Origin: Tropicimonas sediminicola
Lineage (GTDB): Bacteria > Pseudomonadota > Alphaproteobacteria > Rhodobacterales > Rhodobacteraceae
DNA length: 64,000 bases
Assembly: GCF_900188335.1 (NCBI RefSeq)
Contig: NZ_FZOY01000010.1
Location: forward strand, 1-64,000
Reading direction: 5' to 3'
Positions 16,074 through 32,054 of the stretch are shown here, one piece after another. The notes beneath the pieces were generated by a model. The model had not been told where the DNA came from, searched no databases, and saw only the letters and a program-made list of their open reading frames with translations. The number at the start of each line of letters is the position of its first letter. Positions within the stretch are counted from its first letter, which is position 1. The position numbers were made by a program, and so were the translations under genes.

Positions 16074-17363
16074 TTACCAATCGTAGCTTGCGCCGAAGAC
16101 GATCTCGTTCTGGGACATGCGAAGATCGATATCCTGGAGGTCGAGGCCGAATGCAGAGGTCTCGTTCCTGCCAGAGACCTTGCTTTCAAAGGCGTGGGTA
16201 TAGGCTCCGTGAAGGCTCCAGTTCTCGTTCAGCTTGTAGGTAGCGCCGACCGACGCGTGCCATTGGATCGTACCCGGTGCCAGTGTGTTCAGAAGAACCT
16301 CGTCGTTGTCTATGAATTGCGTGGCATAGCTGACGCCGCCACGGAACGTCCATTGATCGTTTTGGCGGTAGACTGCGCCGACGCGAAAGACGTCCATGTC
16401 CTCCCACCCGAAGCCGGGTCCGTCGCTGGCTCCGAACTGAGTGTCAATGACAGCACTGCTGTTTGCGATAGCGGGAATCTGACTGTAGTAGATCCGCTGA
16501 TACTCCGCGGTGATCGTGAAGCGCGGATCGGCTGCGGGAGTGTATCCGGCGCCAATCGAGAATGTCGGGGGTACGTCAAAATCGCCCTGCTCGGCGAAAA
16601 GCCCCGAATAGCGATCGAACTCGCTCATCCAGATCCGCGAGCGATAGGATATCCCGATATCCCACTCTGCGTTCGGCTCGTAGAGCAGTCCAAGATGGTA
16701 GCCCCACCCGCGCGACCAGGAATCGCCATTGTTGGTCACATTGCCCGGGTTGGTGGAAAACATGGCATTGTCGAATGGTTCGAGACCGGTAGCGGAGAAA
16801 CGCTGGAGGGCATAGATCGGCGCAAAGCCGAGCGTGATTTGGTCATTCAACTCGTATGAGTAGTTCAGCCCGATGAAGACCTGTTCGAGGTTTACGCCGA
16901 GCGGCGTTGTCGCGACTCCCGGAGGGGCGAAATTCGAGAAGATGTTGGTGTCATACTCGGTGTTCATGCCACCGTTGCCGTAGATAACGAAGCCAAGAGA
17001 ACTTCGGTCGTTCAGGCTCCAGTTGGCGCCGCCACACGGGATGTAGAAGTAGTCGTTGGAACTCGTCTCTTTGCCCGCGACGAGAGGGCCTCCTGGCTCG
17101 ATGTCGAACCCACGATCCGGAGAAAAGACGGTCACGCAAAACCCGGCCGAGTTGCCGACCTTGTTCCCGAAGGCAGGGTTCTGCGCCAGGCTGAGAACGC
17201 CGGATGGTACGGCGACGCCGGCACCAGCCATCCCTTTCGAACCAGCTCCATAACCGTTGGCGAAGTAGCCGTTGGTTGCCAGCGCCGGGTCCGCCGCGGC
17301 CCCCACCATGGCAAGAATGGCCGTGCCTGCGAAGACGCGGTGTGTTCGAATTGAGGTCCTCAT
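16074..17363 (-). CDS. FadL/OmpP1/TodX-type outer-membrane channel
   Basis: A 429-residue outer-membrane beta-barrel of the FadL family, which takes up long-chain fatty acids and other hydrophobic compounds. A signal peptide (residues ~1-29, cleavage near PALAT) is followed by the family's N-terminal plug: NGYFANGYGAGSKGMAGAGV, then SLAQNPA. The alternating strands end in FGASYDW, a terminal aromatic beta-signal. Start at 17363 is supported by GAGGAG upstream. It is flanked by long non-coding stretches and appears to be monocistronic. Its cargo could be a hydrophobic substrate for one of the neighbouring catabolic sets. Confidence 0.88.
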   Translation of the reverse strand: MRTSIRTHRVFAGTAILAMVGAAADPALATNGYFANGYGAGSKGMAGAGVAVPSGVLSLAQNPAFGNKVGNSAGFCVTVFSPDRGFDIEPGGPLVAGKETSSNDYFYIPCGGANWSLNDRSSLGFVIYGNGGMNTEYDTNIFSNFAPPGVATTPLGVNLEQVFIGLNYSYELNDQITLGFAPIYALQRFSATGLEPFDNAMFSTNPGNVTNNGDSWSRGWGYHLGLLYEPNAEWDIGISYRSRIWMSEFDRYSGLFAEQGDFDVPPTFSIGAGYTPAADPRFTITAEYQRIYYSQIPAIANSSAVIDTQFGASDGPGFGWEDMDVFRVGAVYRQNDQWTFRGGVSYATQFIDNDEVLLNTLAPGTIQWHASVGATYKLNENWSLHGAYTHAFESKVSGRNETSAFGLDLQDIDLRMSQNEIVFGASYDW

Positions 17364-18283
17364 GATTGGTCTCCTCGCACATCATGACACGGTGATGCCC
17401 GATCTCGCTGATGCAGACGCGTGGCCATTGTCGGACTCACCCGCTATAGATATTCGAATGTCAGCATGTTCTTGGTTGCGCGTCACAGGAAATGTGATCC
17501 GGCGGCGAAATTGATTCCAGATTGGGTCCGATTTGCTCCACTCTCGTCCGGTGCGCCGACGAAACAACGGCACTCACTTCTTAAGTGACCTGAGCAAGCT
17601 GCAAGCGGCCTCCTTCCCTGTTTCGGGACTCCCTCTCATCTCCATTCGCTGATGACTTCGATGAACCGGACGCCTCTGTAGTCGGACATATCGACGAAAG
17701 GAAATCGGTGCTTGGAGGTGTTTGCTGATGTCCGTGACTCGCGCGTGGCATTCACATGATGCGGTCAGTTAGGTTTGGGAGAGACCATCGAGGAGTGAGG
17801 CTGACGCAGGCACCGACGAAGGTCGAAGCATAAATGCGGGTGGGATCATCCATGGCATCGCGACCGGTCAGCGCACTCGTAGCCCCGAGATCCGGCAGTG
17901 TCATCGATCCGCGGCAGACATCATCATGTCGGAAGGGTTCCTCAGGAACCATCCCTGCACGCCGCCTGGCACCCGAAGGCCAAAGCCAAAAAGAAGCCCC
18001 CAGACAGAGTTTTTGAGTTGCCCGCCCCTTCGGCCCTGCGGTTCCCGTCTCCCTTTGAACAGCTCCCAGGAAACCCGGTGCCCGTCTGATGGACGCCCCG
18101 GACGCAGCAGCAAAAAAAATGTCCGGGTTTGTCTGAGATCAAATCGAAATTTTTGAATGTGTGATTGAAAGCGACCATGATGACTCGCGCCCCTATCGTT
18201 CGCTTACTGCATCCGCATGAAAAATCGAGCGTCCGCAGCGAGGGCAGAGCCGTTCCGGTTATCACCAGGCCGCGGAGGCACAC
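17364..18283. other. Long intergenic region upstream of the Mbx-like operon
   Basis: About 920 bases without a recognisable gene. Small frames on both strands lack family motifs or convincing start sites. It must contain the promoters for the divergent FadL-like gene and for the Mrp/Mbx-like operon; the GGAGG just before 18284 is the ribosome-binding site of the first subunit. No tRNA, riboswitch or repeat was recognised. Confidence 0.45.
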
Positions 18284-18781
18284 ATGAGCGACACGTTCGC
18301 GCCCGTTAAGATCTTCTCCGTAACTCTATTGTTCTGGATTCTGCTCAACGGCGCTCTTGAGGTCGATGTGCTTCTGGTCGGGGCGGTCGTTGCCGGTGCG
18401 ATCACCTTCCTCCTCGCCGGCAGCCTTTCATTCCTCTCAGGATATCGGCTCACCTGGGAATCTGCCCGGGCGACCCTCGGGTATCTAGGATATTTCCTGC
18501 GAGAACTTCTGAAGGCGAACCTTTCGCTCGCGCGGGTCGTAATGGACCCGGCGCTGCCGGTGGAGCCAGCAATCGTCAAGGTGCGCACGCGACTCAAGAA
18601 CCCTGTTGCGCGGCTGCTGCTCGCCAATTCGATCACCCTGACCCCCGGGACTCTCACGGTCGAGATGAAAGGCGAGTGGCTCTATGTCCATTGGGTCTTC
18701 GCCAAAACAACAGATCCCAATGTCGCAACGGCCGAAATCGTCGCGGACTTCGAGAAATTCCTGGAGAAGATGTATGACTGA
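18284..18781 (+). CDS. Mrp/Mnh antiporter subunit E-like protein (MbxA position)
   Basis: A 165-residue membrane protein matching the MnhE/MrpE family: hydrophobic N-terminal helices, then the cytoplasmic segment VKVRTRLKNPVARLLLANS, ITLTPGTLTVE and the C-terminal WLYVHWV motif. It is a small subunit of the Na+/H+ antiporter module. It is the first gene of a 12-gene operon that joins this module to NuoH/B/C/D/I-like subunits. Start at 18284 is preceded by GGAGG. Its stop codon overlaps the next start. Confidence 0.9.
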   Translation: MSDTFAPVKIFSVTLLFWILLNGALEVDVLLVGAVVAGAITFLLAGSLSFLSGYRLTWESARATLGYLGYFLRELLKANLSLARVVMDPALPVEPAIVKVRTRLKNPVARLLLANSITLTPGTLTVEMKGEWLYVHWVFAKTTDPNVATAEIVADFEKFLEKMYD

Positions 18782-19034
18782 CACCCTCCTGCTTCCCGCC
18801 GCCATCGCGGCGCTCGCGCTTGCAGCTGCCTTCTGGCGGTTCCTCGTCGGGCCGCGCCCGGTCGACCGCGTCGTCGCCTTCGACGGGCTCACCATCATCG
18901 CCATAACCGGGCTTGTCCTGTCAGCGCTTGCCTCGGGGCGAAGCATCTATCTCGACGTGGCCTTGGTCTACGCTCTGCTGTCCTTCCTGGGTGTCATCGT
19001 CGCGGCCCGCTACCTTGAAGGAGGCGAGCAATGA
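18774..19034 (+). CDS. Mrp/Mnh antiporter subunit F-like protein
   Basis: An 86-residue protein with three transmembrane helices, typical of MrpF/MnhF: FLVGPRPVDRVVAFDGL followed by IYLDVALVYALLSFLG. The start at 18774 lies inside the end of subunit E (8-base overlap), implying coupled translation. The order E-F-G is the normal Mrp order. Its role is structural within the cation-translocating membrane arm. Confidence 0.9.
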   Translation: MTDTLLLPAAIAALALAAAFWRFLVGPRPVDRVVAFDGLTIIAITGLVLSALASGRSIYLDVALVYALLSFLGVIVAARYLEGGEQ

Positions 19035-19366
19035 ACGCCTTGGCCATTCTCGGTGTCATGGTGATGACCGCGGGCGCCGTGTTTCTCGCATTCGCGGGCC
19101 TGGGGCTCTATCGCATGCCCGACACCTACACGCGCATTCAGGCAGGGACCAAGGCGACCACTCTCGGCACGATCCTCACCTTGGTGGGCGCTGCGCTGAT
19201 CATGCCTGACTGGGGTGTCAAACTGCTTCTGATCGCTCTCTTCCTGATGTTCACCAACCCACTTTCGTCACAGGTGCTGGCACGGGCCGCGCATCGCGCC
19301 GGCGTTCCCGCAACGAAAGAATCCAAGGCAGATGCGCTGGCCGAAGATCGGGAGGAACTGGCATGA
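19031..19366 (+). CDS. Mrp/Mnh antiporter subunit G-like protein
   Basis: A 111-residue membrane protein of the MrpG/MnhG family. Diagnostic segments are FLAFAGLGLYRMPDTYTRIQAGTK (read in parts) and LFLMFTNPLSSQVLARAAHR. It overlaps subunit F and the following MbhD-like gene by four bases on each side. Part of the antiporter-like membrane module. Confidence 0.9.
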   Translation: MNALAILGVMVMTAGAVFLAFAGLGLYRMPDTYTRIQAGTKATTLGTILTLVGAALIMPDWGVKLLLIALFLMFTNPLSSQVLARAAHRAGVPATKESKADALAEDREELA

Positions 19367-19617
19367 GCACGCTGATGCAGGGTCTCGGGCTCGTGATCGC
19401 CCTTGCCACAATCGGTGCCGCAACCTTGGCAATTCTCACGAGATCGACCGTGACAGCGGTGCTTGCGGCTGGCCTCGTGAGCCTTCTCGCCTCGGTTCTC
19501 TTCGTGGTTCTCGCCGCGCCCGACGTGGCGATGACCGAGGCGGCTATCGGCTCCGGCCTGACCACCTTCCTCTTCTTCTTTGTGATGGGCCGGATCCGTC
19601 GGGAGAGTGAAAAATGA
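19363..19617 (+). CDS. MbhD-like subunit (DUF4040)
   Basis: An 84-residue, three-helix membrane protein matching the MbhD domain that forms the C-terminal part of MrpA in conventional antiporters. Conserved phrase: VLAAPDVAMTEAAIGSGL. In Mbh/Mbx-type complexes this domain is a separate gene, as here. Four-base overlaps on both sides support an operon. Confidence 0.85.
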   Translation: MSTLMQGLGLVIALATIGAATLAILTRSTVTAVLAAGLVSLLASVLFVVLAAPDVAMTEAAIGSGLTTFLFFFVMGRIRRESEK

Positions 19618-20315
19618 TCCCCAAAGTCCTGATTTCCGTTTTGTTGCTGCTATTGGGCTATGCGTTCTGGACCCTGTCTGTCGGTTATGCTCCGGATACG
19701 GAACTCAACCGCACGGCAGCCTACTACGCGGCAAACGCAGAGAGCGAGGTCGGCGCACCGAACATCGTCACCGGTATCATTGTCACCTGGCGTGGTCTCG
19801 ATACGCTGGGCGAAGTTACGGTGCTCTTCCTGACCTCCGCGATCATTGCGCTTGTGCTCTCGCAGTCCGGGGGGCCTTCGGGCGTCTCCGGCGCGGACTT
19901 CCTGCCCTCCGGCGAACTGTTGACCACCGGCGCACGGATGTTGGTGCCTCTGATCGTCCTGTTCGGCGCCTATGTCATCATGAACGGGCATTTGACACCG
20001 GGAGGCGGTTTCCAGGGCGGCGCGATACTCGCCTCGGGCGTGCTGATGGCTCTGCTCGCCGAGCCGACGCGCCGTTTCGGTCACACGGCCATCTTGCGCA
20101 TCGAGAGCCTCTCGGGGAGCTTCTACGTGCTGATCGGACTCGCTGGAATGGCGATCGCGGGAGGCTTTCTGGACAACGGAATTCTTCCACTGGGGCAGTT
20201 TGGCACCATGCTCTCTGCCGGAGCGATCCCGCTCATTTCGGTCTTGATCGGGCTGAAGGTCGGCGCTGAATTCTCTTCGATCCTCCAAAGCCTGCATGAA
20301 ACGGAGGACGCGTGA
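19614..20315 (+). CDS. MbhE-MnhB fused antiporter subunit
   Basis: A 233-residue membrane protein with two parts. Residues ~1-90 resemble MbhE, including GAPNIVTGIIVTWRGLDTLGE. Residues ~100-230 are MnhB/MrpB, including LFGAYVIMNGHLTPGGGFQGG. In Bacillus-type Mrp the MbhE part lies at the end of MrpA and MnhB is separate; in archaeal Mbh/Mbx both are separate small genes. This arrangement therefore links the two into one chain. It overlaps both neighbouring genes by four bases. Confidence 0.85.
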   Translation: MIPKVLISVLLLLLGYAFWTLSVGYAPDTELNRTAAYYAANAESEVGAPNIVTGIIVTWRGLDTLGEVTVLFLTSAIIALVLSQSGGPSGVSGADFLPSGELLTTGARMLVPLIVLFGAYVIMNGHLTPGGGFQGGAILASGVLMALLAEPTRRFGHTAILRIESLSGSFYVLIGLAGMAIAGGFLDNGILPLGQFGTMLSAGAIPLISVLIGLKVGAEFSSILQSLHETEDA

Positions 20316-20671
20316 TGTCCCAGATTGCCCTCACATGCGGCTTCATACTCATCCTAGCGGGACTGTACGGCGCACTGACGAACCGTGACATCCTGCGGAT
20401 GATCGTTGCCTTCACCGTGGCAAACACGGGCGTCAACATCGTCCTCGTCGCGGTAGGCTACTTGCCCGGCCGAACCGCGCCGATCCTGGATTCCGCCGTC
20501 CCGGTGGCAGAGGCCGCCCAGCGTATCATCGACCCGGTGCCACAGGCGCTGGTTCTCACTGCCATTGTCATCGGCCTGGGCATCACCGCGTTGATGCTCG
20601 CCTACGCCTACCGTCTGTTCCGGCTGCGTCACAGCCTTGATATCTCGAACTTCACGGAGCTGAAATGGTAA
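20312..20671 (+). CDS. Mrp/Mnh subunit C-like protein (NuoK homologue)
   Basis: A 119-residue, three-helix membrane protein of the MnhC/MrpC/NuoK family: LAGLYGALTNRDILRMIVA, then VANTGVNIVLVAVG and PVPQALVLTAIVIG, which matches the PLPQALVLTAIVI hallmark of MnhC. It links the antiporter module with the NuoH side in complexes of this family. The start overlaps the preceding gene and its end overlaps the next. Confidence 0.92.
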   Translation: MMSQIALTCGFILILAGLYGALTNRDILRMIVAFTVANTGVNIVLVAVGYLPGRTAPILDSAVPVAEAAQRIIDPVPQALVLTAIVIGLGITALMLAYAYRLFRLRHSLDISNFTELKW

Positions 20672-23600
20672 GCCCTGTCCTCATCATTGCCATCGGCCTC
20701 GGCACGGCATTCGCACTGGGACTGCTGGGATCCTCCCGCAAGACCCTTCAATTTGGCGCAACGCTCACGGCGCTGGCCGCAATGTCCGCAATCAGTGTCA
20801 TCTGGCTCGTGGCCCTCGTCACTGGTGCCGCACAGACGGCCGAAATCCATACCGCCGGCGCGGTGCCGCCCTTCGCGATCAACTTGCGGGTGGGCATCGC
20901 CGAAGCGGCTCTGCTCGCGACCGTCACCCTCACCGGCCTGTTCGCGGCGCTGTCGCTGCGCGCTCAGCTTCTCAAGCTCGGGCGCGGCGGCATGGCCGTG
21001 CTGCTCGTGCTGATCATGGCCATCTCCGGCCTCGTGATGACGCGGGACCTGTTCAACGTCTTCGTGTTCATCGAGTTGATCGCCATCGCGACCGCCGGTC
21101 TCGTGCTTCTTTCCGAAGACCCGCGCGCCGTGTGTGCCGGTTTCAAATTCCTTGTGGTTGGCCAGATCATTGCGATCCTGCTGCTGGTTGGCATCATCTT
21201 CACCTATCACGCGAATGGCTCGCTCAATATCGACGATATCGCGGCCACGCCGGTTGGTGTTCAAGGCGCTGCCCTGGCGATGTTCCTGCTGTTGATTGCG
21301 CTGGTCATCGAACTCAAGACCTTCCCGGCAAACGGCTGGGCGCTTGATATCTACACCAGCGCGCATCCGGGCTTCTCGGCGGTCTTTTCGGCGGCAACCG
21401 GCAGCGCGGCGCTGTTCATCGTCGACAAGGTCGTGGCGCCTGCCGGTGCCGAATGGCTTCCGCTTCTGACAGGCATCGGAGTGCTCAGCTTTGTTGCCTC
21501 CAACGTCGTGGCGCTGCGCCAGGACAATGACCGCCGCCTGCTCGGCTATTCCTCGGTTGGCCAACTCGGCCTCGTGCTTGCCGTGATCGGCCAGCGCGAC
21601 GTGCTGGGCGAGGCCTATCTGTACGTCGCGGGTGGTCTGATCCTGTCCCATGCTGTGGCCAAGGCGGGCCTGTTCTGGATGTCCGCCATGGTGCGTGGCC
21701 GCAATCTCGACGACTGGGCCGCCATCCGCGCGCGAGCGCCGATGGTTCTGGCCTTCGCGACCTTCATCGCCATGCTCGTCGGCCTGCCTCCCTTCCCCGG
21801 TTTCTATGCCAAGTGGGACCTCGCGCAGGCGCTGGTCGCCGCGGGACGGCTGCCGGTACTGGCGCTGATCCTGCTCGGCGTGCTGATCGAAGCGGCCTAT
21901 CTCTTCCGCTGGTTCGGCTTCGCCATCAAGCGTGAGGCGCCGGAGAAAGGCCTTTCCGCCAACATGGTGGATTGCGGCATCACCTTCGCAGCCGTGATCG
22001 CCGGTTGGGCGCTTGGCTGGATCTGGGGCGCGATCCCCGGACAGCACAACGTTCTGGCCACATTGCCGATGCTGGCGGTTCTGGCCTTCTTCGCCCTCGA
22101 ACCGCTCCCCGCGAAAATCAAGAACGTGGCCGCAATCGGGGCGCTGCTAGGCTGGTTCACGCTGGTCTTTGGCGACTATGATCCGATGCGCCTGATCTTC
22201 GCTGTCGTGATGATCCCCGGCGGGGCCGTCATCCTGCTCGCGTCCTTCACGGAAACAGGACGGCGGATCGGTTTCTACCCTTCGGCCATGGCGATGTATG
22301 CCGGCCTTGCGCTGCTGCTCGAAGCGACCACTTTCTTCGAGTTCTTCGCTGCGTGGGAAATCATGACCATCGGTTCCTACTTCCTGATCCTGCGCGGCAA
22401 GATGTCGGAACCGCATGCGCTGAGTTACATGCTCTTCTCGCTCGGTGGCGCCTTTGCGCTGCTCGCGGGTTTCGCGCTTGCTTCGGGTGGTATCCAGCCC
22501 TTCGCGCTCAACCAGCTTGGAACGGTAGGGGCCGAACTGGCACCGTGGGTCTTCGTCCTTCTGTCCATCGGCTTCATGACGAAAACAGCGGCCATGGGGC
22601 TCCATATCTGGCTGCCCGGCGCACATGCCGAAGCCGAGACGGATGTCTCGCCCATGGTCTCGGGCATCCTGCTCAAGGCCGGGCTCTTCGGTCTTTTCCT
22701 GATGCTGATGGAACTCGGGCGACAGAGCCTCTGGGGTGTCGACCTGACGGTCGTGCTCGCCTGGATCGGCGCGATCTCCGCCTTCCTGGGCGCGGTGCTC
22801 TCGATCTTCCAGGAGGACGCAAAGCGGCTGCTGGCTTACAGTTCGATCAGCCAGATGGGTTATGCGCTCTTCGGTATCGCGCTGATGAACCACCTCGGCT
22901 GGCTGCTGGCGATGATGTTCGTCATCAACCACTACGTCTACAAGTCGATGCTCTTCCTGGCCGTGGGCGGCGTCTACAAGCGCACCCACACCAAGCTCAT
23001 GTACCAGATGGGCGGGCTGATCACGCTGATGCCGTTCACCTTCGTCTCGGTGCTGGTGGGGATCATCGCGATGTCGGGCGTGCCGCCGCTTTCGGGCTTT
23101 GGCGGGCGCTGGATCTTCTACAACGCGATCATGGATGCGGGGTTGCGCTTGCCGCTGATCCTGATCTTCATGGCCGGCCCCGTTGGCTTCCTCTACCTCT
23201 TCCGGCTGATCCACACGATCTTCCTCGGCCAACTGAAGGATCCGCACAGGCAGTTGAAGGAGGCGCCCGTCTGGCTGCTGGTGCCGCAGATGATCTTCGT
23301 GGCCTTCCTCATCGGCTTCGCGGTTCTTCCAGGCATGGCGCTTCAGAAGGTCGACGGTTACATCGGCTCGATCTTCGGCGATCAGCCTCTGGTCTGGTCC
23401 GGCCGTGCCATCGCTTCCGAGTTCGGCTATTGGAACCCGGTTGCGATCATGGTGGTGATCGCAGTGATCTTCGTATCTGTCTTCCTGATCCTGATCGCCA
23501 AGAACCACGACGCCCAGAAGGTGAAGCAGTTCAACATCGTCTTCTCCGCCGAGCGCCCCTATCGCCCCGAGACGACGCATTTCGCATGGAACTTCTTCGC

Positions 23601-23793
23601 CCCCTACCGGAAGGCGCTGGGCTTCCTTGAAGCGCCGGTGGTCACCTCTTTCTGGGGCGGCGTTACCGACGGCTTGAACGGCACCGCGGAGTTCACCCGC
23701 CGCTTCTACAACGGCAATGGACAATCCTATGCAGCGCATGTGCTGCTCTTCGTGGTCGCCGTCTATCTGATCGCAATGGGAGGCGTCGCATGA
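20665..23793 (+). CDS. Fused double antiporter-like subunit (two MrpD/NuoM-type modules, MbxH-H' equivalent)
   Basis: A 1042-residue membrane protein containing two complete proton-antiporter modules in one chain. Module 1 (about 1-480) has the key glutamate E137 (FVFIELI) and lysines K218 (IELKTFP) and K333 (AVAKAGLF). Module 2 (about 500-1000) has E565 (AAWEIM), K640 (FMTKTA) and K671 (LLKAGLFG). These are the broken-helix and channel residues of NuoL/M/N and MrpA/D. The second module is followed by a ~100-residue tail with a final helix. Archaeal Mbx complexes use two separate genes here (H and H'). The reading frame is uninterrupted, and both modules keep their charged residues, so this is probably a functional fusion that could pump two ions per cycle. 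It overlaps its neighbours at both ends. Confidence 0.9.
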   Translation: MVSPVLIIAIGLGTAFALGLLGSSRKTLQFGATLTALAAMSAISVIWLVALVTGAAQTAEIHTAGAVPPFAINLRVGIAEAALLATVTLTGLFAALSLRAQLLKLGRGGMAVLLVLIMAISGLVMTRDLFNVFVFIELIAIATAGLVLLSEDPRAVCAGFKFLVVGQIIAILLLVGIIFTYHANGSLNIDDIAATPVGVQGAALAMFLLLIALVIELKTFPANGWALDIYTSAHPGFSAVFSAATGSAALFIVDKVVAPAGAEWLPLLTGIGVLSFVASNVVALRQDNDRRLLGYSSVGQLGLVLAVIGQRDVLGEAYLYVAGGLILSHAVAKAGLFWMSAMVRGRNLDDWAAIRARAPMVLAFATFIAMLVGLPPFPGFYAKWDLAQALVAAGRLPVLALILLGVLIEAAYLFRWFGFAIKREAPEKGLSANMVDCGITFAAVIAGWALGWIWGAIPGQHNVLATLPMLAVLAFFALEPLPAKIKNVAAIGALLGWFTLVFGDYDPMRLIFAVVMIPGGAVILLASFTETGRRIGFYPSAMAMYAGLALLLEATTFFEFFAAWEIMTIGSYFLILRGKMSEPHALSYMLFSLGGAFALLAGFALASGGIQPFALNQLGTVGAELAPWVFVLLSIGFMTKTAAMGLHIWLPGAHAEAETDVSPMVSGILLKAGLFGLFLMLMELGRQSLWGVDLTVVLAWIGAISAFLGAVLSIFQEDAKRLLAYSSISQMGYALFGIALMNHLGWLLAMMFVINHYVYKSMLFLAVGGVYKRTHTKLMYQMGGLITLMPFTFVSVLVGIIAMSGVPPLSGFGGRWIFYNAIMDAGLRLPLILIFMAGPVGFLYLFRLIHTIFLGQLKDPHRQLKEAPVWLLVPQMIFVAFLIGFAVLPGMALQKVDGYIGSIFGDQPLVWSGRAIASEFGYWNPVAIMVVIAVIFVSVFLILIAKNHDAQKVKQFNIVFSAERPYRPETTHFAWNFFAPYRKALGFLEAPVVTSFWGGVTDGLNGTAEFTRRFYNGNGQSYAAHVLLFVVAVYLIAMGGVA

Positions 23794-24695
23794 CCTTCGA
23801 GTGGATCCAAGTTCCCTACGCGCTCGCCACGCTTTTCATCATCCTGAACTACGGGCTGCTGATGACGGCGGTGGTGCGAAAGCTCGCCGCAAGGGTCGGC
23901 GGTCGGCCGGGCATCCCGGTCTGGCAGAACTACATCGACCTGGTGAAGAACTTTGCCCTGCGGTCAAAGATCAATCATGGCGTCATGTACTATCTCGGCC
24001 CGGTCTTTCGGCTGTCGGGCGGCATCGGCCTCATCCTCTTCGTTCCGACGATCTATGGCAGCTCCTGGGCGCAGAACTTCTCCTTCGCCGGGGATCTCGT
24101 GCTTGCACTGTATTTCATTTTCTTCGGCACGCTGGGGATGGCACTTGGCGCAGGCGAGAGCGGGCATCCGCACTCGGCCATCGGTGTTTCGCGCGGGCTC
24201 GCGCAGGTGACGACGGCAGAACTGCCGATGGCGCTCGCGGTCTATTCCCTCGCCATCCAGTACCAGACGCTTTCGATCACCGAGATCGTCGCGGCGCAGC
24301 AAGGGGGACTGTTCAACTGGACGCTCTTCACCAACCCGCTCGCCGTGGTGGCCGCGATGTTTGCCTTCGTCGGTACCATGATGCGCTCGCCATTCGACGT
24401 GGTTCTCGCGCCGCAGGAGATCCCGATCGGCCCGCCGACGGAATATCACTCGGCCTACCTGGCGCTGATGCAGACCAACCGCGCGATTTTCCCGATCGCC
24501 AAGACGATCATCTACATGAACCTCTTCTTCGGCGGAGCGGCCAACTGGGCGGAATTCGCGATCAAGGTCTTCCTGCTCTACATGATCCCGGCCGTGATCG
24601 GCGTGGTCCACCCGCGCTTCCGGGTCGAACAATCCATCCGCTTTTTCCTGAAATGGGGGCTGCCCGTGGGCATCCTCGCCATCCTGACGGTGTGA
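23790..24695 (+). CDS. NuoH-like membrane subunit (MbxM/MbhM equivalent)
   Basis: A 301-residue protein with about eight transmembrane helices, homologous to complex I subunit NuoH and hydrogenase subunits HycD/MbhM. Visible features are the quinone-site-like loop GGRPGIPVWQNYIDLVKNFALRSK, here with GRPG and WQNY, and the charged segment MMRSPFDVVLAPQEIPIGPPTEYHS. It anchors the peripheral iron-sulfur arm to the membrane. The sequence is closer in layout to the hydrogenase-type subunit (short, ~300 residues) than to classical NuoH (~325-345). It begins four bases inside the fused antiporter gene. Confidence 0.9.
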   Translation: MTFEWIQVPYALATLFIILNYGLLMTAVVRKLAARVGGRPGIPVWQNYIDLVKNFALRSKINHGVMYYLGPVFRLSGGIGLILFVPTIYGSSWAQNFSFAGDLVLALYFIFFGTLGMALGAGESGHPHSAIGVSRGLAQVTTAELPMALAVYSLAIQYQTLSITEIVAAQQGGLFNWTLFTNPLAVVAAMFAFVGTMMRSPFDVVLAPQEIPIGPPTEYHSAYLALMQTNRAIFPIAKTIIYMNLFFGGAANWAEFAIKVFLLYMIPAVIGVVHPRFRVEQSIRFFLKWGLPVGILAILTV

Positions 24696-24698
24696 ACC

Positions 24699-25391
24699 AT
24701 GAAAGACGTTGACGACAAGTTCCTCAAGAACCTGGACAGGACGGTTCCGCTGCGGGAAGAGCTCCGCCCCCGCAAGGTCACCACGCCCGACGGGCAGGAG
24801 ATCGAGATCGAGCCGCTGAAGGACTACTTCTGCGAGGCGGCGCCCAAGGTGCACGCGAAGTCCTACTTCCCGATCGTCGAGGATTTCTACAACTGGGCGC
24901 GCGCCAACTCGCTCTGGATTCTCGGCTTCGGCACCGGCTGCGGCGCCATCGAGATGCGCCCGCTGATGACGCCGCGCTTCGATGCCTACCGCTACGGCAT
25001 TCAGTGGCGGCCCACCCCGCGGCAGTCGAACCTGCTGATGATCTCGGGCTATCTCTCGGTAAAGACGCTGAAGCGCGCGATCCGCGCCTATGAGCAGATG
25101 CAGGGCCCCAAATACGTCGTCGGCCTCGGCTCCTGCACGATCAACGGCGGAATGTACTGGGACAGCTACAACACCATCAAGCGGCTCGACCAGTACCTGC
25201 CGGTGGACCTCTACATCGCCGGCTGCATGCCCCGCCCCGAGGCGCTGCTCGCGGGCTTCATGGAACTGAAGAAGCTGATCAAGGCAGGCAAGTGCGAAGG
25301 CGCCAACAAATATGCGGAGAACTTCGCGACCTACAAGGCAAACCAGAAGTCCGTGATCAAGGACTGGGACATGCCGGATTACAACTGGTGA
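24699..25391 (+). CDS. NuoB-like small subunit (MbxJ/MbhJ equivalent) with altered N2 cysteine pair
   Basis: A 230-residue peripheral subunit of the NuoB/hydrogenase-small-subunit family, expected to hold one [4Fe-4S] cluster next to the NuoD-like subunit. Visible ligands are C81, C146 (GLGSCTINGG) and C176 (YIAGCMPRPE). NuoB normally has two adjacent cysteines before AIEM, but here the sequence is C81-G82-A-I-E-M, so one is lost. The residues GSCTINGGMYWDSY and GCMPRPE are otherwise conserved. An N-terminal extension of ~60 residues is longer than in NuoB. It starts three bases after the NuoH-like gene and overlaps the NuoC-like start. Confidence 0.88.
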   Translation: MKDVDDKFLKNLDRTVPLREELRPRKVTTPDGQEIEIEPLKDYFCEAAPKVHAKSYFPIVEDFYNWARANSLWILGFGTGCGAIEMRPLMTPRFDAYRYGIQWRPTPRQSNLLMISGYLSVKTLKRAIRAYEQMQGPKYVVGLGSCTINGGMYWDSYNTIKRLDQYLPVDLYIAGCMPRPEALLAGFMELKKLIKAGKCEGANKYAENFATYKANQKSVIKDWDMPDYNW

Positions 25392-25396
25392 GCGAC

Positions 25397-25927
25397 ATGC
25401 GCGACATTCATGCCCTTCTCAAGCAACGCCATCGCCTCGGGCCCCTCGAGCCCCGCAAGGGTGGCCTGGCCTTCGTCACCGTGCCCCGCGAGAACCTGCG
25501 CGGGCTGCTGCTGGAACTTCGCGACACGCATGGCTTCACCCACCTCGTGCTGCTGACGGCGGTGGACTGGATGGAGGACGGCCTCTTCCAGCTCACCTAC
25601 ATGCTCAACAACCGCGGCAGGGACCTGACCCTCGGCATCCGCGTGATGATCGACAGGGAAGAGGCGCAGGGCGACACCATCCACGACATGTGGCCGACCG
25701 CCGCCACCTACCAGCGCGAACTGAAGGAAATGTTCGGCATCGACTTCCCAGGGTCGCCGCGGCTCGACGAGGAGTTCATCCTCGAGGGCTGGACCGACCT
25801 TCCGCCCTACCGGCGCGACTTCGACAGCCTCGCCTACTCGCAGCAGACCTATGCCGAGCGCCCGGGCCGGGTCACCCACGACCCGCGCGAATACATGAAA
25901 TCGAAACTTTATCCGGACGGGGTGTAA
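25397..25927 (+). CDS. NuoC-like subunit (30 kDa subunit, MbxK equivalent)
   Basis: A 176-residue soluble subunit of the complex I 30-kDa family. The conserved C-terminal block is present: ATYQRELKEMFGIDFPGSP, then LEGWTDLPPYRRDF. It helps hold the NuoB- and NuoD-like subunits together. The ATG at 25397 is chosen; a GTG at 25388 that overlaps the preceding stop codon (GTGA) is equally plausible and would add three residues. It ends two bases before the NuoD-like gene. Confidence 0.9.
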   Translation: MRDIHALLKQRHRLGPLEPRKGGLAFVTVPRENLRGLLLELRDTHGFTHLVLLTAVDWMEDGLFQLTYMLNNRGRDLTLGIRVMIDREEAQGDTIHDMWPTAATYQRELKEMFGIDFPGSPRLDEEFILEGWTDLPPYRRDFDSLAYSQQTYAERPGRVTHDPREYMKSKLYPDGV

Positions 25928-25928
25928 C

Positions 25929-27107
25929 ATGTTCAGCTTCAAGCCCGACCGCAGCCAGTATCCGGCGCCCGGCCCCGACGGGAAACTGCAGATCGACCTC
26001 GAGACCGGCAAGTATCTCAAGCTCTGGCAAGGCCCGAACCACCCCGGAATCACCGGCAACATGTCGGTTGAGTTGACGGTCTGCGGCGACGAGGTGGTCG
26101 AGGGAAAGACCCACGTCGGCTACCTGCACCGCGGCTTCGAAAAGCTGATGGAGCGGCGAACCTTCATCCAGGTGTTCCCCATCGTCTGCCGGGTCTGCGT
26201 GCCCGAGCCCGACTTCAACGAATATTGCTATGCCGCCGCGGTCGAGGATCTCGCCGGCATCGAGGCGCCGGAATACGCCCAGTGGATGCGGACGCTTATC
26301 CTCGAGATGGGCCGTTTCAACAGCTACATGATGTTCCTCGGCGGCATCGGCGGAGCGCTCGGCCTCGGGATCACCGGCCAGTGGATGACCTACGTGCGTG
26401 ACCTCATGCTCGACCGGTTCGAGGAGCTGACCGGCGCCCGCATCTACCACATGTTCATCCTGCCCGGCGGCGTGCGCGGGCATCTGCCCGAGGGCTTCGA
26501 AGGGCGCATGGAGGAGGTGCTCGACACCGCCGAGCGTTACCTTGCCGATATCGACAGGGTGATGTTCTCCAACTCGGTCTTCAAGACCCGCACCAAGGGG
26601 GTCGGCGTGATCGACCCTGCCCTCTTCGAGCCCTATGGCGTGACCGGCCCGAACGCGCGCGCCGGCGGCGTGGCAAAGGACCTCCGCAAGGACAGCCCCT
26701 ACCTCGTCTACGACCAGCTCGATTTCGAAGTGGCCACCGCGACCGACAGCGACATATTCGCCCGCGCCACAGTGCGCCGCGCAGATGTTCAGACCTCGAT
26801 CGACCTGATCCGCCAGATCCTGAAGAAGATGCCGAAGACCGGCCCGGCGATGGCCAAGATCCCCAATGTACTTCACTGGAAGATCCCGCGCGGCGAGACC
26901 TACATCAAGGGCGAGTGCTCGCGCGGCGAATATGGCTACTACCTCGTCACCGACGGCACCGGCTACCCGCGCCGGATCAACGTGCGCGGGCCGAGCTACA
27001 CCCACGCGATGGCGCTGCTGGAACACCTGATTCCGGGCACGAACATCTCAGACGTTGCGGCACTGATGGTGTCGCTGCACACCTATCCCCCCGAGATCGA
27101 GAGGTAA
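25929..27107 (+). CDS. NuoD-like large subunit (MbxL equivalent) keeping a hydrogenase-type N-terminal CxxC
   Basis: A 392-residue protein of the NuoD/[NiFe]-hydrogenase large-subunit family. It carries the family core, including HVGYLHRGFEKLME, ILEMGRFNSYMMFLGG and the C-terminal HALLEHLIPG-like region (here MALLEHLIPGTNISD). In true hydrogenases four cysteines in two CxxC pairs bind nickel; in NuoD all are gone. Here the N-terminal pair is kept (C87-R-V-C90) with C100 nearby, but the C-terminus ends SLHTYPPEIER and has no CxxC. It is therefore unlikely to be a hydrogenase, but the two cysteines could bind a metal or sulfur species. This intermediate state is reminiscent of archaeal MbxL. 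It lies two bases after the NuoC-like gene. Confidence 0.88.
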   Translation: MFSFKPDRSQYPAPGPDGKLQIDLETGKYLKLWQGPNHPGITGNMSVELTVCGDEVVEGKTHVGYLHRGFEKLMERRTFIQVFPIVCRVCVPEPDFNEYCYAAAVEDLAGIEAPEYAQWMRTLILEMGRFNSYMMFLGGIGGALGLGITGQWMTYVRDLMLDRFEELTGARIYHMFILPGGVRGHLPEGFEGRMEEVLDTAERYLADIDRVMFSNSVFKTRTKGVGVIDPALFEPYGVTGPNARAGGVAKDLRKDSPYLVYDQLDFEVATATDSDIFARATVRRADVQTSIDLIRQILKKMPKTGPAMAKIPNVLHWKIPRGETYIKGECSRGEYGYYLVTDGTGYPRRINVRGPSYTHAMALLEHLIPGTNISDVAALMVSLHTYPPEIER

Positions 27108-27110
27108 GCC

Positions 27111-28907
27111 ATGGGCCTGCGCGAGGTTCTCACCCCCTTCACCGTGTGGAAGCATGTCTTCGACGATCCGGTCACCATCAAGCAGCCAATCGGCCGCCCC
27201 GCCGCGGAACGCTACCGCGGCTTCCACCAGAACGATCTCGACACCTGCATCGGTTGCGGCACCTGCGAGGCGATCTGCCAGAACGGCGCGATCGACATGG
27301 TGGCGGTCGCCGGATACGACCCCGAGAAGGGCAACTCCGGGTTGAAGCCACAGATCGACTACGGCCGCTGCTGCTGGTGCGCGCTCTGCGTCGACGTCTG
27401 CATGACCGGCTCGCTCACCATGTCCAACGAGTACACCTGGGTGGACACCGACCCCGACGCCTTCCGCTTCGTGCCGGGCCTCGAGGAGCCATGGAAAGAC
27501 GACGAGGAAGGCTACGAGCGCGAGGGCAAGCGGGTGCTCTCGGGCATCGAGCGGATTCACATGGAAGAGATGGAGCCCGAAGCGCGCATCGGCAATTTCG
27601 ACGAGATCGTCGCGGGCTACAGCCGCGCCGAGGCGATCCTCGAGGCGGATCGCTGCGTCGAATGCGGCCTCTGCGTCGCAACTTGCCCGGCTCACATGTC
27701 GATCCCCGACTACATCGCTGCAGTGCGGGACCAGGACTACGACCGCGGGCTGCAGCTGCTCTACGAGACCAACCCGTTCTCGGAGGTCTGCGGCCGCGTC
27801 TGCACCCACAAATGCGAAGGGTCCTGCGCCGCGCTGCACGAGGGCGACCCGATCGCCATCCGCTGGCTCAAGCGCCACATCATCGACGAGGTGCCGTTCG
27901 ACCGGCGCATCGAGCTGATCGGCCAACCGGCAGAGCCGACCGGCCGCAAGGTCGCGATCATCGGCGCCGGTCCAGCCGGGCTGACGGCGGCCTTCGACCT
28001 GGCCCGCGCCGGCCACGGCGTGGTGGTCTACGAGGCGCTCGCGCACGCCGGCGGGATGATGCGTTACGGCATCCCCGAATACCGTCTGCCATACGACGCG
28101 CTCGACCGCGACATCGGCGTGATCGAGGCGATGGGCGTGGAGATCCGCACCAATTGCCGTGTCGGGCGCGACGTGACGATGGACGAGCTTCGCCGCGACC
28201 ACGACGCCGTCGTCCTCACCATCGGCCTGCACATGGGCCGCTCGACCCGCGTGCCCGGAACCGAGGGTGCCGGCGTCGAAAAGGCGGTGGACCTGCTGCG
28301 GCGGATCACCGACGGCGAGAAAGTGCCGCTGGCCGAGCAGATCGTGGTGATCGGCGGCGGCAACGTGGCGATGGACATCGCCCGCTCGATGGCGCGGCTG
28401 CAGAAGGCGGAATTCGGCAAGGTCGGCATCACCCTGACCGCCCTCGAAGACATCGACCATTTCCTCGCCGACCCCGAGGAGGTCGTGGAAAGCCGCGAGG
28501 AGGGTGTGAAGATCTTCGACGCCCGCGGGCCACAGGAAGTGATGCGCGATGCCGAGGGCAAGGTCACCGGGCTGCGCACCTGGCGGGTCAAGTCGATCTT
28601 CGACGCCGAGGGCCGCTTCGCCCCCGCCTACGACCAGAGCGACGAGCGCGTCCACGCGGGCAGCATGGTGATCGAGGCGATCGGTCAGGCGGCGGACACG
28701 TCGCTGCTCGGCGCAGCGTTGACCGAGGCGCTGGAGTGGAACCGTGGACGGATCAAGATCGACACAGCATTCCGGACCTCGGAGCCGTGGCTCTTCGCTG
28801 CAGGCGATGCGGTCAAGGGCCCGGATGTCATCAGTGCCGTTGCCGACGGTCACCGGGTGGCGCGGACGGTGATGGAGAAACTCGCAGCACGGGAGGTTGC
28901 ACAATGA
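27111..28907 (+). CDS. NuoI-GltD fusion: iron-sulfur/flavin NAD(P)H oxidoreductase subunit
   Basis: A 598-residue fusion. Residues ~1-125 are a NuoI/MbxN-like domain with two [4Fe-4S] motifs (C46/C49/C52/C56 and C87/C90/C93/C97). Residues ~165-275 are the N-terminal iron-sulfur domain of GltD/NfnL-type enzymes, with C182/C185/C188/C192 and C227/C231/C235/C239. Residues ~278-598 form the flavoprotein: FAD site GAGPAG at 285-290, then GGMMRYGIPEYRLP, and an NAD(P) site GGGNVA at 415-420. Electrons could pass between NAD(P)H and the NuoB/D-like core through up to four clusters, giving the complex its own pyridine-nucleotide input or output. It lies three bases after the NuoD-like gene and overlaps the ferritin-like gene by four. 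The fusion is continuous, with no sign of a frameshift. Confidence 0.9.
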   Translation: MGLREVLTPFTVWKHVFDDPVTIKQPIGRPAAERYRGFHQNDLDTCIGCGTCEAICQNGAIDMVAVAGYDPEKGNSGLKPQIDYGRCCWCALCVDVCMTGSLTMSNEYTWVDTDPDAFRFVPGLEEPWKDDEEGYEREGKRVLSGIERIHMEEMEPEARIGNFDEIVAGYSRAEAILEADRCVECGLCVATCPAHMSIPDYIAAVRDQDYDRGLQLLYETNPFSEVCGRVCTHKCEGSCAALHEGDPIAIRWLKRHIIDEVPFDRRIELIGQPAEPTGRKVAIIGAGPAGLTAAFDLARAGHGVVVYEALAHAGGMMRYGIPEYRLPYDALDRDIGVIEAMGVEIRTNCRVGRDVTMDELRRDHDAVVLTIGLHMGRSTRVPGTEGAGVEKAVDLLRRITDGEKVPLAEQIVVIGGGNVAMDIARSMARLQKAEFGKVGITLTALEDIDHFLADPEEVVESREEGVKIFDARGPQEVMRDAEGKVTGLRTWRVKSIFDAEGRFAPAYDQSDERVHAGSMVIEAIGQAADTSLLGAALTEALEWNRGRIKIDTAFRTSEPWLFAAGDAVKGPDVISAVADGHRVARTVMEKLAAREVAQ

Positions 28908-29398
28908 GCGAGACGAACAAGGCGAAACTGACTGGAAAGGCGACAGTTCGAGAGATATTCGAAACGGCGACGGAATTCGAGAAGGTCGCACATCGCTTCT
29001 ATACCGAGTTGATCCCGAACGTTTCCAAGGACATCCGCTGGCTGGTCGAAGAACTGGCCGAGGAAGAGTTGGAGCATGTGGAGCTGTTCACCAACCTGTC
29101 GAAGAACCCGGAAGTTGACGCCATCATGGCGGCGGAGATCGCCCGCCCGGTGGCCGATGGCAAGTTCTCCGATTGCGTGCACACGCCGGATCTTGGACCC
29201 AATCCCGATGACCAGGCGGTCCTGCAATATGCACTCATGCGCGAAAGCGCCGCGATGGACCAGTACACCGAACTGGCCCAAAGCACCCCTGCCGGTCCGC
29301 TGAAGGATGCATTCGTCTTCCTCGCGAACGAGGAAACCAAGCACAAGGCGGAACTGGAAAAGATCTACTACGAAACAGTTCATTCCGGAGGTGTTTGA
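28904..29398 (+). CDS. Ferritin-like diiron protein (rubrerythrin-type four-helix bundle)
   Basis: A 164-residue ferritin-like protein. Two helix-borne ExxH motifs (E55-L-E-H58 and E144-T-K-H147) plus E24 and E114 give a plausible diiron site. There is no C-terminal rubredoxin domain with CxxC pairs, so it is an erythrin-like rather than a full rubrerythrin. Such proteins often act as peroxidases or oxygen scavengers and need an electron donor. Its start overlaps the NuoI-GltD stop by four bases, so it is the last gene of the operon and may protect the complex or use electrons from the flavoprotein. Confidence 0.85.
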   Translation: MSETNKAKLTGKATVREIFETATEFEKVAHRFYTELIPNVSKDIRWLVEELAEEELEHVELFTNLSKNPEVDAIMAAEIARPVADGKFSDCVHTPDLGPNPDDQAVLQYALMRESAAMDQYTELAQSTPAGPLKDAFVFLANEETKHKAELEKIYYETVHSGGV

Positions 29399-30605: not shown

Positions 30606-32054
30606 TCAAATCGGGTAATGGAGTTCGCCATCCTGCAGCGTAATCCACCGCAATTCGGTGAACTCGGCGATCCCCCAGGTGCCGCCGAACCGGCCATAGC
30701 CTGAAGCCTTGACCCCGCCGAAGGGCATTTGCGCCTCGTCATGGACGGTCGGGCCGTTGACATGGCAAATGCCGCTTTCGATCCGCCGTGCCACCTCGAG
30801 CGCCCGCATGATGTCACGGCCAAAGACAGCCGAGGACAGGCCGAACTCGCTTTCATTGGCGATCCGAACGGCTTCGTCCACCGAGGCGGCGCGGATGATC
30901 GCGACAACCGGGCCGAAGCTTTCCTCGGAATATATGCGCATCTCGGGTGTCACGTTGTCGAGCGCGGCGGCATTCAGGATCGTGCCGTCGCCGCCGCCCG
31001 CGATCAGCGTGGCCCCCTTGTCCACGGCGTCCTGGATGAGGCCGCGCACCCGGTTCGCGGCCCCGGCTGACACAAGCGAGCCAAGCGGCTGGTCGCCCTC
31101 GCGCGGATCGCCGGCGGTCAGGTCTGCCACTTTGGCCTGAAAGGCCTCGACAAATGCGTCGCCGGCGGCGCCCACCGCGATGATCCGTTCGGTCGACATG
31201 CAGATCTGGCCCTGGTTCATGTAGGCGCCGAAACCCGCGGCGGCGACCGCGGCCTTGATATCGGCATCTTCGAGAACAATCATCGGCGCTTTGCCACCGA
31301 GCTCCAATAGCGCCGGCTTCAGATGACGCCCGGCCAATTCCCCGATCACCTTGCCAACACGCGTCGAGCCGGTGAAGTTGACTCGCCGCACCGCCGGATT
31401 GGCGATCAGCGCCTCGACGATCTCCGGCGCATCGTTTGGGTCGTTGGAAATGGCGTTGAGCACACCCTCGGGAAAGCCGGCCTCCGCCACGGACTGGACC
31501 ACCAGCGCATGCACGCGCGGGCAAAGTTCGGAGGATTTCATTACAACCGTATTGCCGCAGGCCAGCGGCGTGGCGATGGCGCGAACGCCAAGGATCACCG
31601 GCGCGTTCCAGGGCGCCATTGCCAACACCACGCCCGCAGGTTGCCGGATCGCGAAGGCCGTGGAACCGGGGCGGTTCGAGGGAAGAATCTCGCCGGTGAT
31701 CCGGGTCGTCAGGCTCGCGGCCTCGACCAACATGTCGGCGGCGAGCATCACGTTGAACCGCGCCCAGCCTTCGGTCGCACCAACCTCGTCTTTCATCGCG
31801 GCCACGATGTCGTCGGCGCGCGCCTTGAGGTTCTCCGCAGCGGCAAGCAACAGGGCCCTGCGATCCCCTGGCCCGGTTGCCGCCCAGGCTGGAAAGGCGC
31901 GCGCGGCGGCGTCCACCGCCCGCTCCGCATCGGCCAGACTCGCTGCAGCGGCTTCGGTCACGGTTTCACCACTGACAGGGTTGCTCCGGGTGAACCGCCG
32001 ATCCCCTTCGGCTGGCTGGTGTTGTCCGTTGATATAGAGGTTCAGGCTTTCCAC
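30606..32054 (-). CDS. NAD(P)-dependent aldehyde dehydrogenase (vanillin/benzaldehyde dehydrogenase-like)
   Basis: A roughly 482-residue aldehyde dehydrogenase: VVLAMAPWNAPVILGVRAIA, FTGSTRVGK for the cofactor, ELGGKAPMIV with the general-base glutamate, and catalytic cysteine in NQGQICMSTE. The C-terminal MPFGGVKASGYGRFGG motif is typical of the vanillin/salicylaldehyde group. The frame is open and continuous with the upstream ABC ATPase (see the LivF entry), so this could be the C-terminal part of a 731-residue fusion. A GTG at 32054 preceded by AGAAAGGA would give a normal-length, independent enzyme, and that start is used here. The neighbours suggest an imported aromatic or branched substrate is oxidised. 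Confidence 0.85.
   Translation of the reverse strand: MESLNLYINGQHQPAEGDRRFTRSNPVSGETVTEAAAASLADAERAVDAAARAFPAWAATGPGDRRALLLAAAENLKARADDIVAAMKDEVGATEGWARFNVMLAADMLVEAASLTTRITGEILPSNRPGSTAFAIRQPAGVVLAMAPWNAPVILGVRAIATPLACGNTVVMKSSELCPRVHALVVQSVAEAGFPEGVLNAISNDPNDAPEIVEALIANPAVRRVNFTGSTRVGKVIGELAGRHLKPALLELGGKAPMIVLEDADIKAAVAAAGFGAYMNQGQICMSTERIIAVGAAGDAFVEAFQAKVADLTAGDPREGDQPLGSLVSAGAANRVRGLIQDAVDKGATLIAGGGDGTILNAAALDNVTPEMRIYSEESFGPVVAIIRAASVDEAVRIANESEFGLSSAVFGRDIMRALEVARRIESGICHVNGPTVHDEAQMPFGGVKASGYGRFGGTWGIAEFTELRWITLQDGELHYPI

Follow-up and report, generated by a model that had tools for sequence, protein, structure and literature searches.

The membrane-bound sulfane reductase (MBS) is seen as linking hydrogenases, Mrp antiporters and complex I. 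The form with a solved structure and assayed activity is the archaeal, ferredoxin-driven one from Pyrococcus furiosus (PDB 6u8y; PMC7684303). In that enzyme, the proximal [4Fe-4S] cluster to which S-S cleavage is ascribed has three cysteine ligands in MbsJ (C28, C93 and C123), C25 being too distant to ligate it (PMC7684303). The bacterial homologue MBX of Thermotoga maritima has 13 subunits, is treated as ferredoxin-dependent and proposed to be a sulfur reductase, and its mbxA is upregulated 4.36-fold with elemental sulfur, S0 (PMC9431562). A putative Mrp-Mbx of Endoriftia, a sulfur-oxidising proteobacterial symbiont, appears in a list of complexes whose function or direction is unknown (PMC11636981). 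Here we analyse an operon at positions 18284-29398 on the + strand of a 64,000-nucleotide stretch of Tropicimonas sediminicola DNA (positions 1 to 64,000 of contig NZ_FZOY01000010.1; hereafter the window). By the sequence criteria tested, this operon belongs to the MBS/Mbx kind, as a variant that differs in its electron entry, its diiron companion and the wall of its catalytic chamber. With modest confidence, we regard the encoded complex as a membrane-bound, ion-pumping, reversible NADH:sulfane-sulfur (polysulfide) oxidoreductase, a bacterial, NADH-linked relative of MBS.

The interval holds 13 intact open reading frames (ORFs), all on the + strand, whose neighbours overlap or sit a few bases apart. 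They follow the order given in a preliminary description of the locus and have Pfam matches above the cut-offs:

18129-18142, + strand: FNR/CRP-like palindrome, 9/10 consensus positions, 155 bases 5' of the first start codon
18284-18781, + strand: MrpE/MbsA-like subunit (MNHE, PF01899, 1.1e-34)
18771-19034, + strand: MrpF/MbsB-like subunit (MrpF_PhaF, PF04066, 4e-17)
19031-19366, + strand: MrpG/MbsC-like subunit (PhaG_MnhG, PF03334, 2.8e-24; TIGR01300 over cut-off)
19363-19617, + strand: MbhD/MbsD-like subunit (MbhD, PF13244, 2.2e-17)
19614-20315, + strand: fused MbhE and MnhB, MbsE-like (PF20501 and PF04039)
20312-20671, + strand: MnhC/MbsG-like subunit, Oxidored_q2 family (PF00420, 5e-22)
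20665-23793, + strand: double antiporter of 1042 amino acids, an MbsH-like N half fused to an MbsH'-like M half (Proton_antipo_M, two PF00361 stretches)
23790-24695, + strand: NuoH/MbsM-like membrane anchor (NADHdh; 6u8y_M, 128.8 bits)
24699-25391, + strand: NuoB/MbsJ-like subunit (Oxidored_q6; 6u8y_J, 208 bits)
25388-25927, + strand: NuoC/MbsK-like subunit (Complex1_30kDa, PF00329, 1.6e-23)
25929-27107, + strand: NuoD/MbsL-like subunit with an HTYPPEIER end (Complex1_49kDa; 6u8y_L, 314 bits)
27111-28907, + strand: NuoI (MbsN-like) fused to a GltD/NfnB-type FAD protein, 598 amino acids, predicted to be NAD(H)-specific (two [4Fe-4S], Fer4_20 and Pyr_redox_2; NF010590, 848 bits; 6u8y_N and NfnL matches)
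28904-29398, + strand: rubrerythrin-like diiron protein (Rubrerythrin, PF02915, 2.7e-11)

No NuoA-, NuoE-, NuoF- or NuoG-type Pfam family is reported among the 13 operon proteins, as the preliminary description had stated, and no NfnS-type family is found among them. The NuoI, the GltD-type flavoprotein and the diiron protein that it named are all present, except that NuoI and GltD are not separate genes but one 598-residue polypeptide. According to Pfam, the Mrp modules (MrpEFG, MbhDE and MnhBC) and two antiporter units are present, the antiporters being fused. The operon shares with P. furiosus MBS the subunit set, the two antiporter modules and the Na+ module, whereas the two antiporters of the archaeal enzyme are separate chains (PMC7684303). 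No flavoprotein or diiron subunit is among those listed for that enzyme, and its donor is ferredoxin, so that the operon found here is not identical in composition to the characterised MBS (PMC7684303). Complex I has a homologous core (B, C, D, H, I and antiporters); unlike complex I, the operon lacks the NuoE, F, G module and the quinone residues, but has an Mrp-type Na+ module.

Comparison with solved structures, made for six parts of the complex, gives P. furiosus MBS as the best PDB match throughout. NuoB matches 6u8y_J with 208 bits (next 137), NuoD matches 6u8y_L with 314 bits (next 212), NuoH matches 6u8y_M with 128.8 bits (46.8 for the membrane-bound hydrogenase, MBH) and the NuoI half matches MbsN (6u8y_N) with 77 bits (next 46). 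The double antiporter matches both MBS antiporters with 178 and 146 bits (next 118), residues 5-306 being closest to 6u8y_H and residues 441-1039 to 6u8y_X. In the phylogenetic tree, which was built for NuoD alone, the 20 operon proteins cluster together (100/99). At 100/100 they unite with MBS and with a divergent protein from genome G344, apart from the complex I proteins of Thermus, mouse and the host and from MBH/HycE. This tree has 27 rows with long reference branches, for which the program warns that long-branch joins may be false; the active-site residues nevertheless agree with the MBS placement. The Mbx/MBS kinship proposed in the preliminary description is thus borne out by the nearest solved structures, the NuoD tree and the active-site residues, and NuoD groups with MBS and not with complex I or a hydrogenase.

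In NuoB, the cluster cysteines C81, C146 and C176 are invariant in all 64 sequences, and the position of MbsJ C25 is occupied by Gly (63/64) or Ala (1/64). At the quinone-site positions Nqo4 H38 and Y87, all 75 NuoD sequences have Thr and Val (Thr42 and Val91), respectively. Neither this His/Tyr pair nor the adjacent Cys pair, which is a complex I feature of Nqo6 (PMC7684303), was found in the NuoD and NuoB alignments, and the set of four Ni-Fe cysteines of the group 4 [NiFe] hydrogenases (MBH, formate hydrogenlyase) is not kept in the 75 NuoD sequences. A three-cysteine proximal cluster and the loss of the quinone and Ni-Fe residues are also features of P. furiosus MBS (PMC7684303). As three cluster cysteines are kept without a fourth and the quinone His/Tyr pair is gone, the catalytic design, judged from residue conservation, is that of MBS with an altered chamber wall. 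Of the relict Ni-Fe cysteines of MbsL, the C85 position is still Cys in 66 of the 75 NuoD sequences, and the C385 position is Tyr in 74. The C-terminal HTYPPEIER is nearly invariant (H384, T385 and Y386 each 74/75), and its H384-Y386 segment aligns with the MbsL C385 region beside the proximal cluster. NuoB further differs from its MBS counterpart in an N-terminal extension beyond the MBS alignment.

The NuoI-GltD fusion contains 16 cysteines invariant in an alignment of 81 sequences, which would fit four [4Fe-4S] clusters, and a further Cys88 is likewise present in 81/81. The 2'-phosphate is bound by a YRR motif in NfnB and in DsrL-2, which is of the NADP(H) type; DsrL-1, of the NAD(H) type, is devoid of this motif (PMC7596348). 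Aligned with 5vj7, the fusion has Ala-Leu-Glu at this place (A 68/81, L 71/81, E 78/81), which by the DsrL-1 rule predicts NAD(H) as the cofactor and makes NADP(H) unsuited. The motif is of the same type as that of DsrL-1 from sulfur oxidisers, and FAD with a Fer4_20-type cluster domain is common to the fusion, DsrL-1 and NfnB (PMC7596348). Unlike DsrL-1 and NfnB, the present flavoprotein is joined to NuoI inside an ion pump, and a Cys and a Lys replace the Glu-ligand arrangement of NfnB: the position of the cluster-ligand Glu is Lys in 81/81 and an extra Cys227 is invariant. Electron bifurcation by the GltD half was considered and is unlikely, since this Glu ligand is gone and an NfnS partner was not found among the operon proteins.

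Electrons reach P. furiosus MBS from ferredoxin via MbsN (PMC7684303), and here the MbsN-like domain is itself fused to an apparently NAD(H)-type flavoprotein, which suggests a donor other than ferredoxin. Among NAD(P)H, ferredoxin and a sulfur compound, which the preliminary description had left side by side, the binding motif favours NADH, and the sulfur compound and the direction stay putative. Bacterial MBX complexes, perhaps that of Thermotoga too, would then be predicted to use NADH and not ferredoxin alone. The NuoI-GltD family NF010590 is found above its cut-off in the T. maritima genome, in a gene that we take to lie inside the mbx operon. With this match and a proteobacterial Mrp-Mbx in print (PMC11636981), the initial view that no described system has such fusions was too strong; we suspect the Endoriftia Mrp-Mbx to be the same operon type. 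In the literature searched, with most subscription papers outside the search, an NADH-linked NuoI-GltD Mbx was not found described for Proteobacteria, nor were the breadth, the intact order or the NAD(H) signature.

The same operon was found in other genomes, a search for which the preliminary description had proposed. A scan of genome contigs gave at least 281 relatives, of which the best 80 loci were compared for synteny. All 12 core genes lie in order on one strand in 55 of the 80 loci, and the other 25 have a contiguous run in the same order that starts at or near a contig end. With 55 complete loci and the order broken in none of the 80, chance is excluded. Counting the host in each case, 2 of 385 class genomes and 6 of 398 phylum genomes carry the fusion protein at E<=1e-100, as do 3 of 295 family genomes at E<=1e-150; the same-genus genome G788 is without it. 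Holders include Rhodobacterales, Thiothrix, Chromatiaceae, Magnetococcales, Magnetovibrio, Rhodocyclaceae, Gallionellaceae and Prolixibacter. Among 72,556 plasmid records, three matches were obtained at 1e-60, none spanning 80% of the fusion. This patchy yet coherent pattern suggests that the operon has been gained or lost repeatedly as a working unit. An apparently NADH-linked form that is kept as a single unit of 12-13 genes and is found in Proteobacteria, Bacteroidota, Neomarinimicrobiota and Chlorobiota also provides culturable strains for study. The class and phylum matches include the divergent relative G344, in which the fusion gene is split between frames. Its locus (L009) represents a second, divergent operon lineage, in which the cysteine at MbsL position 385 is retained and a diiron sequence directly follows the flavoprotein in the same frame.

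The co-occurrence of the operon with sulfur and carbon genes was evaluated in 43 holders, comprising the host, G389, G392, G404, G462 and 38 of the 80 loci chosen for long contigs, full operons or named strains; the set is not random and includes many metagenome-assembled genomes. The 37 controls consist of 18 of 20 listed same-family non-holders and every fifth genome of G390-G480 (n=19), whose non-holder status is assumed from the match list. The soxB gene is above the cut-off in 36/43 holders versus 12/37 controls (p 3e-6), with 36/39 proteobacterial and 0/4 other holders, and 10/18 same-family and 2/19 other controls. RuBisCO is present in 31/43 holders, counting a partial match in G770, versus 8/37 controls (p 7e-6), or 10/37 (p 1e-4) when the weak or partial control matches in G430 and G475 are added. 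The host has both genes, but neither nifH above the cut-off nor an rnfC match at 1e-80 was found in it. Two functions were rejected on such grounds: nitrogen fixation, since the host lacks nifH above the cut-off (found in 23 of the 43 holders, a count without a control set), and substitution for Rnf, since 32/43 holders carry rnfC as well.

Within the family, the sample of 295 genomes contains RuBisCO in 50 and soxB in 186, its three holders having both; the three family samples (fusion, RuBisCO and soxB) are taken as the same 295 genomes. The non-holder G788 of the host genus has soxB, and RuBisCO was not found in it. The 13 family holders are G000, G784 and 11 loci that we assign to the host family by organism name, with G1011, the genome of L022, counted once. 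RuBisCO is enriched among them (10/13 versus 47/292 non-holders, p 5e-6). As five of the 13 are Celeribacter, the comparison was also made by genus (6/7, p 1.5e-4), the host being counted as Tropicimonas by inference. Together, the soxB and RuBisCO enrichment favours a role in sulfur lithoautotrophs.

The mechanism that we infer, including its substrate, cofactor, coupling and direction and the role of the diiron protein, would run as follows. NAD(H) would deliver or collect electrons at the GltD-half FAD. Two [4Fe-4S] clusters in this half and two more in the NuoI half would connect the flavin to the proximal NuoB cluster. One iron of that proximal cluster, without a Cys ligand, would cut or form S-S bonds in a reaction chamber sitting between NuoB, NuoD and NuoH. 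Coupling would involve protons moving through the two channels of the double antiporter, in which Lys, His and Glu are invariant in both halves in 60 sequences, and Na+ moving through the Mrp-like module. In the forward mode, NADH and S0 would drive ions out of the cell, and in the reverse mode, sulfide and an energised membrane would yield NADH. With potentials of -270 mV for S0/HS- and -320 mV for NAD+/NADH, the reduction of S0 by NADH would release energy (-12 to -35 kJ/mol at 10 mM to 10 uM sulfide under the assumed conditions). The NAD+/NADH ratios used range from 3.74 to 31.3 (PMC7596348). Such a yield of 12-35 kJ/mol would allow one or two ions to be pumped, yet is small enough for the gradient to reverse the reaction.

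The forward mode fits the existence of holders without soxB and the induction of Thermotoga mbxA by S0, and the reverse mode is in line with the enrichment of RuBisCO and with the NAD(H) type of the binding motif, a type that in DsrL is tied to sulfur oxidation. We tentatively suggest that the complex of sulfur lithoautotrophs and purple bacteria might run chiefly in reverse, with sulfide or persulfide oxidised at the open cluster and NAD+ directly reduced at the expense of the Na+/H+ gradient. If true, this would be a quinone-free reverse electron transport giving NADH to the Calvin cycle. More generally, the operon has a bearing on the NADH supply of sulfur-oxidising autotrophs and on the anoxic life of sulfur-storing bacteria on sulfur.

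Several observations weigh against an NADH:polysulfide oxidoreductase. The substrate may not be polysulfide, since the MbsL C385 position has become Tyr and the HTY motif is new. In addition, Cys45 of NuoB (window 24831-24833), which lies in the N-terminal extension and is kept in 63/64 sequences, could in principle ligand the open iron; the AlphaFold model of NuoB, based on 50 aligned sequences, has a mean pLDDT of 66.9 and gives no usable Cys45 geometry. The fusion scores 848 bits, under the 946 cut-off of NF010590, the nearest named family. Enrichment is seen for rnfC too (32/43 holders versus 12/37 controls), so part of the associations may be taxonomic. Moreover, soxB and RuBisCO are absent in all four non-proteobacterial holders tested, and overall soxB is missing in 7/43 holders and RuBisCO in 12/43, which makes the association one at the level of guilds and not a strict one. 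Within the family, soxB is weakly enriched (12/13 versus 183/292 by E-value limit, 180 of the latter above the family cut-off, p 0.036; by genus 6/7, p 0.43). Our literature searches turned up no activity measurement on a member of this clade.

The diiron protein bears on one of the other explanations. It has two EExxH motifs, in which each residue is kept in at least 61/62 sequences except E54 (56/62), and no rubredoxin domain was detected in it by Pfam. Its gene was found beside the operon in 65 of the 80 loci, including two Chromatiaceae loci (L070, L072) in which it lies upstream, 5' of mrpE. In the remaining 15 it was not found: these are 11 Bacteroidota/Neomarinimicrobiota/Chlorobiota loci together with L077, L080, L082 and, where the contig ends, L035; however, in L087 and L088 fewer than 900 bases follow the fusion, and a divergent copy might have escaped detection. 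The protein probably shields oxygen-sensitive clusters. That it would instead be the terminus of an NADH-driven oxygen or peroxide sink, with the pump serving pH or Na+ homeostasis, is in line with its frequent position next to the operon, even when upstream; the 11 loci that keep the rest of the operon without a detected diiron gene, and the lack of a detected rubredoxin domain for electron uptake, make this most improbable.

The complex could also be an alternative complex I, that is, an NADH:quinone oxidoreductase with a Na+ module in which a new Tyr/His pair of NuoD replaces the usual His/Tyr. An NADH-type flavoprotein would suit this function, as would the near-invariance of H384, T385 and Y386 and their alignment near the proximal cluster. 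Nevertheless, Nqo4 H38 and Y87 are not kept, NuoB is without the adjacent Cys pair, the NuoD tree places the operon outside complex I and the host already has a canonical NuoD, and we consider this reading rather unlikely. An Rnf-like NADH:ferredoxin oxidoreductase, with ferredoxin bound at the NuoI clusters and reduced by the gradient for nitrogenase or reductive carbon fixation, appears quite unlikely. It would agree with the entry of ferredoxin into MBS at this arm (PMC7684303), the citation of Mbx as a ferredoxin:NADP+ oxidoreductase (PMC6349859) and the co-expression neighbours that the Endoriftia Mrp-Mbx has in common with the reductive tricarboxylic acid cycle (PMC11636981), as well as with nifH in 23/43 holders and a host without an rnfC match at the 1e-80 threshold. 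Against it stand the absence of nifH above the cut-off in the host and the presence of rnfC in 32/43 holders; a chamber with an open cluster would also lack an evident use.

FNR/CRP-like sites matching at least 9/10 positions of a consensus that we assume for this scoring were found in 20 of 59 upstream regions, compared to a mean of 2.66 and a maximum of 8 in 200 first-order resampled sets. The site-bearing regions are not independent, since 13 of the 20 are from Rhodobacterales and 11 of these share the TTGTYNRANRTCAA form. Three of the 59 starts were estimated, and two of the 59 rows duplicate contigs (G462/L059 and G404/L062), none of which is among the 20. The predicted site hints that the operon may be used at low oxygen.

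The surroundings of the operon vary between genomes. In a survey of ORFs of at least 90 residues, often covering about 1 kb of upstream flank, the commonest flanking cluster, a GGDEF-type protein by eye, occurs in 10 of 80 loci. Neighbours were rejected as a functional clue because no flanks are conserved over the 80 loci. In six Bacteroidota loci (L086, L089-L093), where no diiron gene was found, the operon is followed by a dihydroorotate-dehydrogenase-like gene, and in four a Crp/Fnr-type regulator precedes it; one representative of each, from L089, was identified.

The host genome (G000) has 5.17 Mb, with the operon on contig C13 and the second, canonical NuoD on contig C25. For this operon, Tropicimonas isoalkanivorans is the closest named relative within the set of fetched loci (96% in NuoD and 88% in the fusion protein). 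In the window, a DDE transposase fragment (PF01609; 29553-29792, + strand) lies directly 3' of the operon, a possible scar of movement, and a FadL/TodX-type outer-membrane transporter (16074-17363, - strand) is divergent from it. Further downstream, one 737-residue ORF (30606-32819, - strand) combines a LivF-like ABC ATPase with a full aldehyde dehydrogenase, through either an unusual fusion or a lost stop.

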